From NCBI RefSeq assembly GCF_007752345.1, contig NZ_CP036299.1:2061001-2125000 (forward strand): a stretch of DNA of 64,000 nucleotides, given 5' to 3'. A program made the translations under genes and the position numbers. The notes under the pieces are model-generated. The model saw only the letters and a list, made by a program, of their open reading frames with translations, was not told where the DNA came from and did no database searches. Source of the stretch: Planctopirus ephydatiae. Its GTDB lineage: Bacteria; Planctomycetota; Planctomycetia; Planctomycetales; Planctomycetaceae. This document shows, one piece after another, positions 32,984 to 43,116 of this stretch. Each line of letters begins with the position of its first letter. The stretch's first letter is position 1.

Positions 32984-34120
32984 ATGCCGGATGCTCTCTC
33001 ACCAACACCTGCTCAATCCAGCGCAGCACCTGGGGTTCAGAAATTACCTGCCTGGCGGTGGGGCCTCCTGCTGTTATTGGTGGGAGTTGTTCTGGGAGCC
33101 GGCATGCTGGCCAATCCATGGATCATGGCCAATAAAGTCCGAGGTGAAAAAAGTGGCCCGCCAGAAGGTGTGATGGCACCTGCGGGGATGGTCTGGATCC
33201 CTGGTGGTGAATTTCGCATGGGCTCGAATGATCCACTGGCGTGGGATGATGAACGCCCGACACATCCTGTTTCTGTGGAGGGTTTCTGGCTTGATAAGCA
33301 CGAAGTGACCAATCGGGAGTTTGCCGAGTTTGTCAAAGCAACGGGCTATGTGACGACCGCCGAAAAGGCTCCGACAGCCGAAGAGATTCTGGCCAACAGT
33401 CCTCCTGGCACACCAGCACCAGATCCGGCAGTGCTGGTGCCGGGTTCGTTAGTGTTTACTCCGCCCGATCATCCGGTCCCTTTGAATGATTTTTCGCAGT
33501 GGTGGGTCTGGACACCTGGTGCCAACTGGCATCATCCCGAAGGGCCGGATTCGAATATCGACGAGCGTATGGATCATCCCGTGGTGCATGTCTCGTGGGA
33601 TGATGCCAGTGCCTATGCCCAATGGGCCGGCAAGCGGTTGCCGACTGAAGCTGAGTGGGAACGGGCGGCGCGGGGAGGCAAAGAGGGTTTGCCGTTTGTC
33701 TGGGGGACAGCGCCCCCCAGTGAAACTTCACCACAGGCGAATCTGTGGAATGGAAAGTTCCCTTATGAGAATACTGCCAAAGATGGCTTTACTCGCACGG
33801 CTCCGGTCAAATCATTCCCGGCCAACGATTACGGGCTGTACGATATGTCTGGCAATGTCTGGGAGTGGTGCCAAGACTGGTACGACCGGGAGCTTTACTC
33901 GAGACGGCCACAATTGACAGTCACAAAAAATCCCGCTGGGCCCGAGAAAAGCCACGACCCCACGCAACCTTTCCAGCAGTTGCGATCTCAGCGTGGCGGT
34001 TCGTTTCTATGTAACGATAGCTATTGTTCACGCTATCGCCCCAGTGCCCGGCATGGCTGCAGCCCTGATACCGGGATGTCGCATGTGGGCTTCCGCTGTG
34101 CAAAGTCGGTGGCCCCATGA
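32984..34120 (+). CDS. Membrane-anchored formylglycine-generating enzyme (FGE)
   Basis: A 378-residue protein. A single hydrophobic helix (about 23-45) anchors the N-terminus. The FGE-sulfatase/SUMF1 domain follows, from [18 protein letters not shown] through [14 protein letters not shown] and [11 protein letters not shown] to the C-terminal [16 protein letters not shown]. The last block retains both cysteines at CxxxxC spacing (Cys343, Cys348). These match the Cu(I)-binding, catalytic pair of human FGE (Cys336, Cys341), which most bacterial SUMF1-like proteins lack, so it should convert sulfatase Cys to formylglycine. The ATG at 32984 is preferred to the upstream TTG at 32951. It is translationally coupled by an ATGA overlap to a P1B-ATPase. 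Confidence 0.92.
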
Positions 34121-36081
34121 CAGCTCCCAGACAGAAAAAATCGACTGCTGAACCCACGACTGAAAACAGCAATCGATGGCTCACTGAGGGACAACTGCAA
34201 ACATCGATTGCCGGTCTGGCGATTGTGGCGATGCTCGTGTGGGGAATCATCGCCTATGCCCTACCCAGTTTTACCATTTACGGTTCGATACAGGTTGCTG
34301 ATCTGTCACTGCTGGTGGCCTTACTGCTGGGTGGTGGCTATCTGGTGGCTGGGCTGCTGGGGAATCTTTTCCGGGGAGAGTTTGGCTCGGATCTGCTGGC
34401 TGGAATCTCGATTGTGACCTCTGTGCTGCTGGGGGAATATCTGGCAGGGACGCTGGTGGTGCTGATGCTTTCTGGCGGTGAAGCACTTGAAGCTTACGCT
34501 GTCCGCCGGGCCTCCAGTGCGCTCGATGCTTTGGCGAAGCGGATGCCGACTGTCGCCCATCGGTTGATTGATGGCCACCTGACGGATGTCCCGCTTCAAG
34601 AGGTGCAAGTGGGAGAACTCCTGGTTGTGCTGCCACACGAGTTCTGTCCGACTGATGGCACCGTGACTGCAGGGCAGGGGACGATGGATGAATCGTTCCT
34701 TACGGGCGAACCTTACCTGCTCCCTAAAGCGGTGGGTGCCAGTGTGCTTTCGGGTGCGATCAATGGAGAGGCAGCACTGACGATTCGTGTCGATCAACCT
34801 GCCAGTGATTCACGCCATGCCAAAATCATGGAAGTCATGCGGGCTTCTGAGCAACAGCGACCCCGTCTCAGACGTCTGGGTGATCAACTGGGAGCCTGGT
34901 ACACACCATTGGCTGTTAGCATTGGGATTGCGGCGTGGGTCATCAGTGGTGAAGCGGTTCGATTTCTCGCTGTCCTGGTGGTGGCGACTCCCTGCCCGCT
35001 GCTGATTGCGATCCCGGTGGCGATCATCGGTGCGGTTTCACTTTCGGCCCGCAAAGGGATCGTCATCAAGGATCCCGCTGTACTCGAAACGGTCACGCAG
35101 TGCCGGGTGGGAATTTTTGATAAAACGGGAACGCTGACCTACGGCCGCCCTGCCATGGTCGAGTTGACGCCACTTTCAGGTTTCGACCGCAACAACGTTC
35201 TGCAACTGGCAGCCACACTCGAACAGTATTCGAGACATCCACTGGCGATGCCATTTCTGGAAGCGATTCAGAAAACGGGTTTGCCATTGCTGGAAGTTTC
35301 GAGTGTGGCGGAACTCCCCGGGCAAGGGCTGACAGGGCTGGTTCAAGGTCATCAGATCGTCGTTACGGGACGTGCGAAACTTCAGAAAAATCAACCAGCT
35401 CTGGCCGAGCAATTACCACCCACACAAGGGGGGCTGGAATGTATCATTCTCATCGATGGCCAACTGGCGGCTGTGACGAGTTTTCGTGATCGACCCCGGG
35501 ATGACGGCAAGCGATTTATCGATCATCTTCGAGAACGGCATCATTTCCAGAAAGTGATGATCGTTTCGGGAGATCGTGAAAGCGAAGTGAAGTATCTGGC
35601 CGATTCCGTCGGGATCTCGGAAATCTATTTCTCTCAAACCCCCGAGCAGAAGGTGGCGATTGTTCGAGCCGAAACCCGGAAGGCGAAAACCGTTTATGTG
35701 GGTGACGGAATCAACGACGCACCGGCATTGTTAGAAGCGACGGTGGGGTTGGCGTTTGGTCGTGGCAGCGATGTGACTGCTGAGGCTGCCGGCGCTGTGA
35801 TCCTGGATGGGAATCTCAAGCGGGTCGATGAGTTTCTGCATATCAGTCGGCGTTTGCGAACGATTGCCCTGCAAAGTGCTGTGGGGGGGATTGTTTTGAG
35901 TCTCACCGGGATGAGCTTCGCAGCACTGGGATACCTACCCCCGGTGTTTGGCGCGATTCTTCAAGAAGTGATCGATGTGATTGCTGTCCTGAATGCGTTG
36001 CGCGTCGGTTTTCCTGCAGGATCTTTGGTTGATTATGACTCATCGGATTCCGGGGGAAGTTCCGGGAATGTTCAGTCATGA
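34117..36081 (+). CDS. Heavy-metal P1B-type ATPase
   Basis: A 654-residue metal-exporting P-type ATPase. There is no N-terminal HMA metal-binding domain; the sequence begins with a short polar tail and then the first helices. Motifs in order are TGEP in the actuator domain, [11 protein letters not shown] in the ion-pathway helix, DKTGTLT phosphorylation site, SRHPLA (the His-Pro locus of P1B enzymes) and [10 protein letters not shown]. The intramembrane motif is TPC rather than the CPC typical of copper or zinc exporters, so the metal cannot be assigned. The ATG overlaps the FGE stop, implying joint expression. Because aerobic FGE needs copper, this pump may supply it outside the cytoplasm; this is inference. 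Confidence 0.92.
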
Positions 36082-39783: not shown

Positions 39784-41223
39784 TTATTTCGTCATGGGAG
39801 TGGGATCTTCCATCTTGGAGCCTCTCCAGAGGGGCTCGATATTGGATTGATTCCACTTCTCCCAGGAAGTTTTCAGACGTGCGACCGTTTCGGGATGAGC
39901 TTCTGCCAGGTTGTTTTTTTCGCTGATGTCTGTGGAAAGGTCATAAAGTTCCCAGCCACTGCTATTTGAGGCTGGAAAATCTCGCCAATCCACCAGCTTC
40001 CAGTTTCCTGCGCGGACAGCCTTTTGGGGGCCAAATCTCCAGAAGAGAGATTCGTGAGGAGATCCCGAACGCTGCGCCAGCCAATAGGGCAACAGATTGA
40101 CACCATCGATGCCTTGAGGAAGTGGCTGTGGTTTTGCGGGATCTTTGGCGGCCAACTGGCAAACCGTGGGCAGAATATCCAAAGAAATGATGGGCTGCTC
40201 ATAGATGGTGCCTGCGGGAAGCTGCCTGGGCCATGAGACAAAGAACGGCACGCGGATGCCGCCTTCGAGAGTTTGCCCTTTATCTCCGCGCAGGGGATGG
40301 TTGAGCCCGGAGTTGTACGCCAGTATTGGTGCGCGTCCCGACCCGCCGTTATCACTGAGGAATATGATGAGTGTATTCTCGCGGAGCCCGTTCTGACTGA
40401 GGTGCTGCATGATCCTGCCAATCGAATCGTCGAGACCTGCGAGCAAGGATAGATAACTTCGGCGAGCCGGGAGTTTTACAGACTCTGGGATTCTCTTCTG
40501 CAGATGCGGGGCGATTTCGAGTGGTGTGTGGACGGCATTGTACGAAAGATACAAGAACCAGGGTTTGTCGGGAGGGCCACTCATCCAGCGAAGGGCTTCG
40601 TTGGTGAAGAGATCTGTCGCGTAGCCTTCCTGTGGTTCGACTTCGCGGCCCCGATAGATCATGTCGTGTGAGTGAGCACTGCCAAACCTGGGTTTGACAT
40701 CTTTATGTAGCAGGTAGTTGTGACCACCGACAAGAAAGCCGAAAAACTCATCGAACCCCCGGCTTTGGGGATGATGATCTTTACTGAAACCTTGGTGCCA
40801 TTTGCCGATCAGGGCCGTGCGATAGCCTTCTTTTCCCAATAAACTGGCGATCGTCACTTCTTCGAGCGGCAAGCCGAGTTTCGCTTCTTCGCCCACGTGG
40901 GGATTGAACTCGTGTCCAAAGCGAGTCTGGTACTTCCCGGTGAGAAAGCCCGCGCGGGAGGGGCTGCAATAAGGTGCGGAAACGTAAGCGTTGGTGCAGC
41001 GAATGCCACTGGCCGCTAATTGATCCAGGTGAGGCGTGGGAATTTCGCAGCCTCCCTGAACCCCCAGATCAGCGTATCCCAGGTCATCTGCCATGATGAC
41101 GAGAATGTTGGGACGCCCGGGTTGGCTGGTTTGATTTACATCCTCGGCAGCTGAGAGGGTTTGTGAACAGAATGCCACAAGAGCCAACCAAAGTGCGATA
41201 GCCGGGTGACTTCCTAATGACAT
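39784..41223 (-). CDS. Exported formylglycine-dependent sulfatase
   Basis: A 479-residue arylsulfatase-family protein with a signal peptide (about 1-25, ending TLSAAED). Metal-binding NILVIMADDLGYADLG opens the domain. The modification motif is APYCSPSRAGFLTGKYQTR, with Cys in the CxPxR context that FGE converts to formylglycine, and IGKWHQG and SDNGG carry further active-site residues. Likely role: hydrolysis of sulfate esters from polysaccharides in the periplasm or outside. ATG 41223 is preceded by AGGAAG at good spacing; an ATG at 41229 is an alternative. The window also encodes an FGE at 33 kb that could activate it. Confidence 0.94.
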   Translation of the reverse strand: MSLGSHPAIALWLALVAFCSQTLSAAEDVNQTSQPGRPNILVIMADDLGYADLGVQGGCEIPTPHLDQLAASGIRCTNAYVSAPYCSPSRAGFLTGKYQTRFGHEFNPHVGEEAKLGLPLEEVTIASLLGKEGYRTALIGKWHQGFSKDHHPQSRGFDEFFGFLVGGHNYLLHKDVKPRFGSAHSHDMIYRGREVEPQEGYATDLFTNEALRWMSGPPDKPWFLYLSYNAVHTPLEIAPHLQKRIPESVKLPARRSYLSLLAGLDDSIGRIMQHLSQNGLRENTLIIFLSDNGGSGRAPILAYNSGLNHPLRGDKGQTLEGGIRVPFFVSWPRQLPAGTIYEQPIISLDILPTVCQLAAKDPAKPQPLPQGIDGVNLLPYWLAQRSGSPHESLFWRFGPQKAVRAGNWKLVDWRDFPASNSSGWELYDLSTDISEKNNLAEAHPETVARLKTSWEKWNQSNIEPLWRGSKMEDPTPMTK

Positions 41224-41542
41224 GAGCATCTTCCTAATGGTGCGAATCGGTGATGCCTCCGTCATATCAACGCGATCTCATGCGATCAATCCTTTGGTTT
41301 GCCGATCTCAAACATTTTGGAGGACTGGAAGAATCAGCGACTTGAGAAGCCTGGCCAGGATGTGCAGGTCGGGTGATGGTTCTGCTGATCCTGACGATTA
41401 CCGGTGACAGGTTGTCTTTTCGTGGGAGAAGAGGCTGGGAATGCCGATCTTTGGAGGGGTGAGGGAAATCAGGCTCCGATTCGAATGCCGCAAAATAGGT
41501 AGACTAGGGGCTGTGCTTCCGCTGCCAAGGAGTTTTTCGGCA

Positions 41543-41736: not shown

Positions 41737-43116
41737 ATGAAAATTGCGTCCATGATGGTCGCTCTGGGAGGCCTGCTGGCCTTCGGACTGGCAGATGTTG
41801 CCGAAGCAAAATACTGCGGTGCCGCAAGGTATCGCTGCTGTCCTACTGAGGCCTGTGCCCCGGCTGGCGATTACTGCGCCGCCAAGGCCTGCCCCACCAC
41901 GTGCTACCAGACCGTTCAGGAAACGGTTTGGGATACGAAGCAGTACCAGTGCTGCCGCACGGTGTACGATCAGGTGACTTGCCAAGTGCCAGTGACCTGC
42001 ACCCGTACCATCCGCGAGACCTGCTATCGTGAAGAGTGTTACACCGTGTGCAAGCCTGTTTATCAGACTTGCTACCGGGAAGTGACCTGCACGATCAAGA
42101 AGCCGGTTTACCAGACCTGCTACCGCGACGTGACCTGCACAATCAAGAAGCCGGTCTACCAGACCTGCTATCGCGATGTCTGCTACACCAAGTGCCGTCC
42201 TGTGTTCCAGACCTGCTATCGCGATGTGACCTGCACAGTCAAGAAGCCTGTCTGCGAAACGCATTATCGTCAGGTCTGCTGCACAACTTATCGGACAGAG
42301 ACCGAGACCTGCTATCGCGATGTCTGCTACACCGTCTGCAAGCCCGTCACAACATACAAGACTGTGGAAGAGTGCACTGGCGAATGGGTCACTGAGACCT
42401 ATCAGATCCCTGGCAAAATGGTGCAGAAGTGCGTGCAAGATCCCGGGACATGGGAATGGGATCCTTGTGCCTGCAAGTGTGTTTATCGTCCTGGTTGTGC
42501 CCGGATGGTTTGCGAGCAGTGCCCACCAACAACCTGCTGCAAGCGAACATGGGTTCCCCGTAAGGTTTGCAAGCAAGTTCCCTGCACGACGTATGTCCGT
42601 GAGACACAAACCTGCAAGCAGCCTTATACTGTTTGCCGACGAGTGCCTGTGCAGTCTGTGAAGCAGGTTCCTTACACCTGCGTCCGCTGGGAAAAGGAAT
42701 GCGTGACGAAGCGAGTTCCTTACACAACCTGCTCGATGGTTCGCGAAACATGCACGAAGCGGGTGCCATACACGACTTGCTCGTGGACGTCTGAATGCAT
42801 CACCAAGCGAGTTCCCTACACAACTTGCTCATGGACCACAGAATGCATCACCAAACGGGTGCCTTACACGACCTGCTCGATGACACGTGAAGTGAAAACC
42901 CGTCAGGTGCCTTATACGATTTGCCGCCAGGTCTGTGAGACCAAGATGGTGACGAAGACCAGTTGCGTGCCACGTAAAGTGGTCGAAACCAAGACGGTCT
43001 GTGTCCCACGTACAGTTTGTCGCCGGGTGCCTGTCACGGCCTGTGCCGCTGTTGATCCGAGCTGTGCAGTTCCTGCAGCCACGGCTCAGGCTCCCTGCAG
43101 TACATGCACCAAGTAG
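41737..43116 (+). CDS. Exported Cys-rich repeat protein (planctomycete YTV-like envelope protein)
   Basis: A 459-residue protein with a clear signal peptide (1-24, cleaved after AEA) and about 61 cysteines. Residues 75-205 repeat a roughly 16-residue unit of the form PVYQTCYRDVTCTIKK. Residues 300-410 repeat another 16-residue unit of the form KRVPYTTCSWTTECIT. Y-T-V/T and V-P-Y-T motifs recall the YTV repeat proteins known from planctomycete cell walls. Dense paired Cys suggests extensive disulphide cross-linking of an insoluble envelope layer. A strong terminator follows directly. Base composition is shaped by the repeats, and the large antisense ORF here is a shadow. Confidence 0.85.
   Translation: MKIASMMVALGGLLAFGLADVAEAKYCGAARYRCCPTEACAPAGDYCAAKACPTTCYQTVQETVWDTKQYQCCRTVYDQVTCQVPVTCTRTIRETCYREECYTVCKPVYQTCYREVTCTIKKPVYQTCYRDVTCTIKKPVYQTCYRDVCYTKCRPVFQTCYRDVTCTVKKPVCETHYRQVCCTTYRTETETCYRDVCYTVCKPVTTYKTVEECTGEWVTETYQIPGKMVQKCVQDPGTWEWDPCACKCVYRPGCARMVCEQCPPTTCCKRTWVPRKVCKQVPCTTYVRETQTCKQPYTVCRRVPVQSVKQVPYTCVRWEKECVTKRVPYTTCSMVRETCTKRVPYTTCSWTSECITKRVPYTTCSWTTECITKRVPYTTCSMTREVKTRQVPYTICRQVCETKMVTKTSCVPRKVVETKTVCVPRTVCRRVPVTACAAVDPSCAVPAATAQAPCSTCTK

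Follow-up and report, generated by a model that had tools for sequence, protein, structure and literature searches.

In Planctopirus ephydatiae, the gene for a formylglycine-generating enzyme (FGE) runs directly into a gene for a metal-exporting P1B-type ATPase, which raises the question of whether the pump supplies the enzyme with its metal. The pair lies in the window, by which we mean the whole stretch of 64,000 nucleotides that was analysed. The original prediction read it as a possible copper-loading unit, in which the pump would export Cu(I) from the cytoplasm and hand the copper to an exported FGE. Our analysis instead favours, with a probability of about 0.8, a genus-specific two-gene operon of two ordinary genes that are linked by co-expression and not by copper loading. 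The features concerned are given below; for comparison we used Nia of Sinorhizobium meliloti, which we take to be the TPCP gene on pSymA on the basis of its motifs, its hemerythrin domain and its locus.

32984..34120, + strand: FGE, 378 aa (PF03781, E=2.7e-88; solved FGEs up to 1.9e-80)
33059..33115, + strand: N-terminal hydrophobic segment of FGE, residues 26-44, probable anchor or signal sequence (hydropathy; segments and lipoboxes of relatives)
34010..34027, + strand: CNDSYC (C-x4-C), copper-binding cysteine pair of FGE, C343/C348 (alignment to solved FGEs)
34117..34120, + strand: ATGA overlap of FGE stop and ATPase start (kept in 4/4 genus genomes)
34117..36081, + strand: P1B-type ATPase of the TPC (P1B-5) class, 654 aa (motifs, tree; no HMA or hemerythrin domain found)
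34987..34998, + strand: TPCP, motif of the metal path, in the helix preceding the phosphorylation site (28/28 full-frame orthologue loci and Nia)
35119..35133, + strand: DKTGT phosphorylation motif (sequence)
35872..35913, + strand: P1B-5 motif QX4GX3SX3M in the next-to-last helix (motif published in PMC3573892; also in Nia)
35962..35976, + strand: QEVID, P1B-5 motif QEX2D in the last helix (28/28 orthologue loci and Nia)
39784..41265, - strand: CSPSR sulfatase (Pfam)

The FGE gene and its junction with the ATPase gene

The ATG-started upstream frame scored 296 bits against the PF03781 cut-off of 23.3. With aerobic FGEs (human SUMF1 and the solved bacterial enzymes) it shares this domain and the GGSFLCxxxYC segment, and its C-x4-C aligns with the cysteine pair of the solved FGEs, so that the two active-site cysteines of an aerobic FGE are present in the predicted catalytic spacing. 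The same pair was found in all 30 listed FGE homologues (the window FGE included) and in all 40 FGEs sampled from the phylum. The complete 5.2 Mb genome holds seven PF03781 matches, among which only the window FGE has C-x4-C; it is absent from the segments read of the other six. The anaerobic maturase model TIGR03942 gave zero matches in the six genomes tried, which included the window genome's congeners G001 and G003 as well as G000. As the sole C-x4-C FGE of a genome with no TIGR03942 match, the window FGE is the likely maturase for the genome's Cys-type sulfatases. Like aerobic FGE systems, this genome would then probably have one functional FGE copy for many sulfatases. In Rhodopirellula baltica, only one of six FGEs is reported as expressed on sulfated polysaccharides (PMC6388578).

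The overlap of the FGE stop with the ATPase start, as originally described, was confirmed in all four genomes of the genus. In one of these the junction is kept at 75% identity for FGE and 82% for the ATPase, with dN values of 0.21 and 0.14 and saturated dS values of 2.26 and 3.69, respectively. The remaining three are 93-94% alike, which means that the four genomes amount to roughly two independent witnesses. Both genes are full-length and conserved, and together with the retained junction this makes the arrangement more than a chance one, although four-base overlaps are common in bacterial operons. The gene 164 bp upstream of FGE (planctomycete-cytochrome/PSD) is oppositely oriented and a zinc-type dehydrogenase gene converges on the ATPase from downstream; FGE and ATPase are therefore a compact two-gene unit. 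Since the junction survived saturated synonymous divergence, the coupling may be under selection.

Metal class of the ATPase

FGE is described as a copper-requiring enzyme (PMC4505483), and in people ATP7A is tabulated as the copper source of SUMF1 (PMC8067471), which gives the idea of copper loading a eukaryotic parallel. The motifs of the window ATPase, however, argue against it. Its ion-path helix lacks the CPC of P1B-1 Cu(I) ATPases (CopA) and has TPC (34987-34995) in its place, and Pfam at E 0.001 detected no HMA domain, both in agreement with what had been noted beforehand. The published P1B-5 table lists TPCP, QX4GX3SX3M and PX5QEX2DX5N, and gives the metal specificity of this class as undetermined (PMC3573892). 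In the window ATPase the last of these reads PX6QEX2DX5N, one residue longer than printed and with spacing identical to that in Nia. While the TPCP and QEX2D motifs were invariant, QX4GX3SX3M occurred in 20 of the 28 orthologue loci, the remaining eight having E in place of Q. These counts cover 28 of 31 ATPase orthologue loci, as L013, L018 and L019 have a stop in frame and were left out, and three pairs among them share a contig (L003/L031, L004/L032 and L014/L036).

A tree of 24 rows, consisting of TPC pumps, E. coli CopA and ZntA, and planctomycete CPC, SPC and APC pumps, gave the same picture. All 14 TPC pumps, including Nia and the window ATPase, fell on one side of a branch with 100/100 support, opposite CopA, ZntA and the planctomycete CPC, SPC and APC pumps. 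Nia and the window ATPase thus have TPCP, QX4GX3SX3M, QEX2D and their side of this branch in common. They differ in that identity is 39.6% over 83% of the query, that the subclade of the window ATPase is separated from Nia by a branch 1.72 changes per column long, and that the C-terminal hemerythrin domain of Nia (PF01814) was not found by Pfam in the window ATPase. This domain is not known to be universal in the P1B-5 class. A second, partial P1B-5 ATPase copy (residues 71-279, 67% identity) was seen in another genome at G050:C1:2587476-2588096.

On its motifs and its place in the tree, the window ATPase is thus assigned to the P1B-5 class, that is, to a predicted nickel/iron rather than copper group; copper specificity was rejected on the same two lines of evidence. 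The metals of Nia are Ni(II) and Fe(II) (PMC4932525; PMC7558416), and the window ATPase would most probably export one of these two, a reading that stays tied to the class given the distance to Nia and the missing hemerythrin domain. The class hence suggests a metal with no known use in FGE, which is largely the outcome that the original prediction had named as speaking against it. The genome's other full P1B pump, located elsewhere at C1:1,054,303, is of the CPC type and groups with CopA, which further argues against a copper role for the pump behind FGE. The pairing of FGE, copper and P-type ATPases is absent from the titles and abstract openings of the literature searched.

Neighbourhoods of the two genes outside the genus

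If the pair formed a conserved module, it should recur in relatives, as the original prediction had proposed to check. ATPase orthologues (at least 57% identity) were present in 23 of the 59 nearest genomes, and FGE adjoined the ATPase in four of these 23, all members of the genus. No close FGE was found within up to ~7 kb of the ATPase at 19 non-genus loci and six others (L033-L038, of which L036 is on the same contig as L048); at L050 and L053 there were only FGE-domain ORFs of 28-30% identity, some kb from the ATPase. Among 392 genomes of the phylum, the ATPase (E at most 1e-120) occurred in 32, FGE (E at most 1e-75) in 75 and both in 8, against 6.1 expected (Fisher p=0.36; p=0.81 minus the genus), so that co-occurrence of two-Cys FGEs and TPC-type pumps is at chance level. 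The both-gene genomes beyond the genus (G021, G030, G031, G060, G332 and G388) have the two genes on different contigs or megabases apart. Within the 59 nearest genomes, FGE was present in 21 of the 23 with the ATPase versus 25 of the 36 others (p=0.06, or 0.18 once the genus is left out), a positive lean for which shared ancestry alone could be sufficient. A conserved FGE-pump module was rejected on these neighbourhoods and the chance-level co-occurrence, and the adjacent pair was found only inside the genus, which is largely the second outcome that the original prediction had named against itself.

Both genes have other partners elsewhere. The ATPase is coupled to a sigma-54 regulator in G035 and to a zinc-type alcohol dehydrogenase in Legionella, and FGE to the gene for a 203-aa protein in G016; no conserved neighbour of the ATPase was found among the planctomycete loci compared. 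At L045, L052 and L056, P1B-5 genes lie near stress-protein-like, sigma-54 regulator, NiFe-hydrogenase-like or molybdopterin oxidoreductase genes (several of these labels assigned by eye), neighbours that would fit a Ni/Fe role. TPC pumps adjoin related zinc-type alcohol dehydrogenases (45-57% between them) in Legionella, Corynebacterium and G036, at L110 4796-7695, L111 3919-7686 and L048 6633-9532. This linkage is wider than that of pump and FGE, and is a minor lead.

What lies behind FGE in its closest relatives suggests how the pair arose. The seven closest non-genus FGE homologues (G004, G014, G027, G033, G036, G037 and G048) have 63-72% identity, and in five of them (G004, G014, G027, G036 and G037) a same-strand sulfatase of the CTAGR family follows. 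The CTAGR motif itself was seen in four of these five sulfatases, the one in G004 being assigned by 74% identity. In G048 another gene follows FGE; the contig of G033 runs on for only 460 bases downstream. The tandem was found at none of 12 other FGE loci surveyed (L095-L107 minus L096; for L096 and L108 the ORF caller yielded no FGE). The tandems and the window have a close FGE homologue, the same strand and a short gap in common; their partner is a CTAGR-family sulfatase, whereas that in the window is the ATPase. In the genus, the closest homologue of the tandem sulfatase (58-61%) is located elsewhere, ~89 kb from FGE in the window genome. From this arrangement we infer that the ATPase came to stand behind FGE in the stem of the genus.

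Location of the FGE, its sulfatases and the role of the pair

The original prediction also held that FGE has an N-terminal membrane helix and faces the periplasm. A hydrophobic segment was found there: mean Kyte-Doolittle hydropathy over 19 residues (KD19) reached 2.04 at residues 26-44, while the catalytic domain did not exceed 0.85. An N-terminal hydrophobic segment was present in all 30 listed homologues (window and genus included; KD19 1.47-2.67), and in six of them (L073, L076, L080, L084, L087 and L088) a lipobox, identified by eye, closes it. In the phylum sample of 40 FGEs, 31 passed a threshold of 1.4 and 13 matched a loose lipobox pattern, while several of the nine below the threshold looked signal-like by eye. 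Most planctomycete FGEs thus begin with an anchor or a signal-like stretch, which in some includes a lipobox. Taken by itself, hydropathy tests export only weakly, since 95 of 177 control ORFs passed as well; the 61 of 70 FGEs that passed nevertheless exceed this control (Fisher p=4e-7), in an imperfectly matched comparison where the N-terminal stretch began at the previous stop for the set of 30 and at the first start codon for the set of 40, and comprised the first 90 residues for the control. Among six plasmid FGEs, those of Sinorhizobium and Rhodococcus had no such segment, two from Burkholderiales were above threshold, and two from Bacteroidota had short signal-like starts below it.

The presumed clients carry signals too: signal-like N-termini were found in 28 of 28 parsed sulfatases of the window genome (the 30 best of 47 fetched, two unparsed). 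Given the hydropathy excess, the lipoboxes and the signal-bearing clients, the window FGE is probably exported, with its catalytic domain outside the cytoplasm, and a periplasm-facing enzyme is in this respect probably right. This contrasts with the description of prokaryotic FGE as cytosolic (PMC4505483). An exported bacterial FGE did not appear in the titles and abstract openings of the literature searched on FGE export.

The CSPSR sulfatase 4 kb away, proposed as a client, proved uninformative. It is one of 47 PF00884 matches in the genome, 45 of them above the cut-off, and although it is kept beside the pair in G001, it was not found within ~8 kb downstream of the pair in G003, the most diverged genus member; a special client role was rejected on these grounds. 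At 41737-43116 of the window, a 459-aa ORF is built from numerous cysteine-rich repeats of the type KPVYQTCYRDVTCTI. A separate observation concerns G105, G126 and G234 of another genus of the same family (g53; L226-L242 and L244-L268). These have no FGE match at 1e-75, their best PF03781 matches being 1e-53 to 2e-59, and no TIGR03942 match; C-x4-C was seen in none of the 20 PF03781 matches read out of 53 in five genomes. Yet G105 has 96 PF00884 matches, and 24 of the 25 fetched have a Cys-type active site.

The favoured reading, a genus-specific operon, would work as follows. Owing to its N-terminal segment, FGE probably has its catalytic domain beyond the cytoplasmic membrane, and there it would act on the many exported sulfatases of the genome by oxidising their active-site cysteine. 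The ATPase, judged by its class, would serve homeostasis by exporting a divalent metal, with Fe(II) and Ni(II) as the likeliest candidates. Their junction would have arisen in the genus stem, since in most of the closest homologues outside the genus a sulfatase follows FGE and the ATPase lies elsewhere or beside other genes, and the ATGA coupling would give co-expression of a sulfatase maturase and an Fe/Ni-class exporter.

An indirect functional link, with the Fe/Ni pump limiting mis-metallation of FGE or sulfatase, or with both genes under a common oxygen/metal-stress signal, is unlikely: the coupling held through saturated synonymous divergence and P1B-5 orthologues occur near a sigma-54 regulator, a NiFe-hydrogenase-like gene (by eye) and a molybdopterin/ferredoxin oxidoreductase, but across the planctomycete loci compared no partner of the ATPase is conserved, and its linkage to FGE was not seen elsewhere. 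It is very improbable that planctomycete FGEs work outside the cytoplasm and that in this genus the co-translated TPC pump, which belongs to a subclade far from Nia, metallates the exported FGE in a copper-like or other role, as a bacterial counterpart of the arrangement of ATP7A and SUMF1 proposed in people; motifs, tree, neighbourhoods and co-occurrence gave no supporting evidence for metallation by the pump. Copper loading proper is likewise very improbable; it has the ATGA coupling and the probable export of a copper enzyme in its favour and against it the P1B-5 motifs, the clade with Nia, and a pair seen only in the genus with chance-level co-occurrence in the phylum sample.

It is the probable export of FGE that merits further study, and not the pump. 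Published genetic tools for Planctopirus limnophila (PMC4910669) make direct testing feasible; the main text of a Tn-seq paper (PMC10632474) does not mention sulfatase, formylglycine or P-type. If FGE is exported, the sulfatases of these bacteria would mature during or after export, as they do in the eukaryotic ER, and it has to be asked how copper is supplied beyond the cytoplasm, to which the window pair is probably not the answer.
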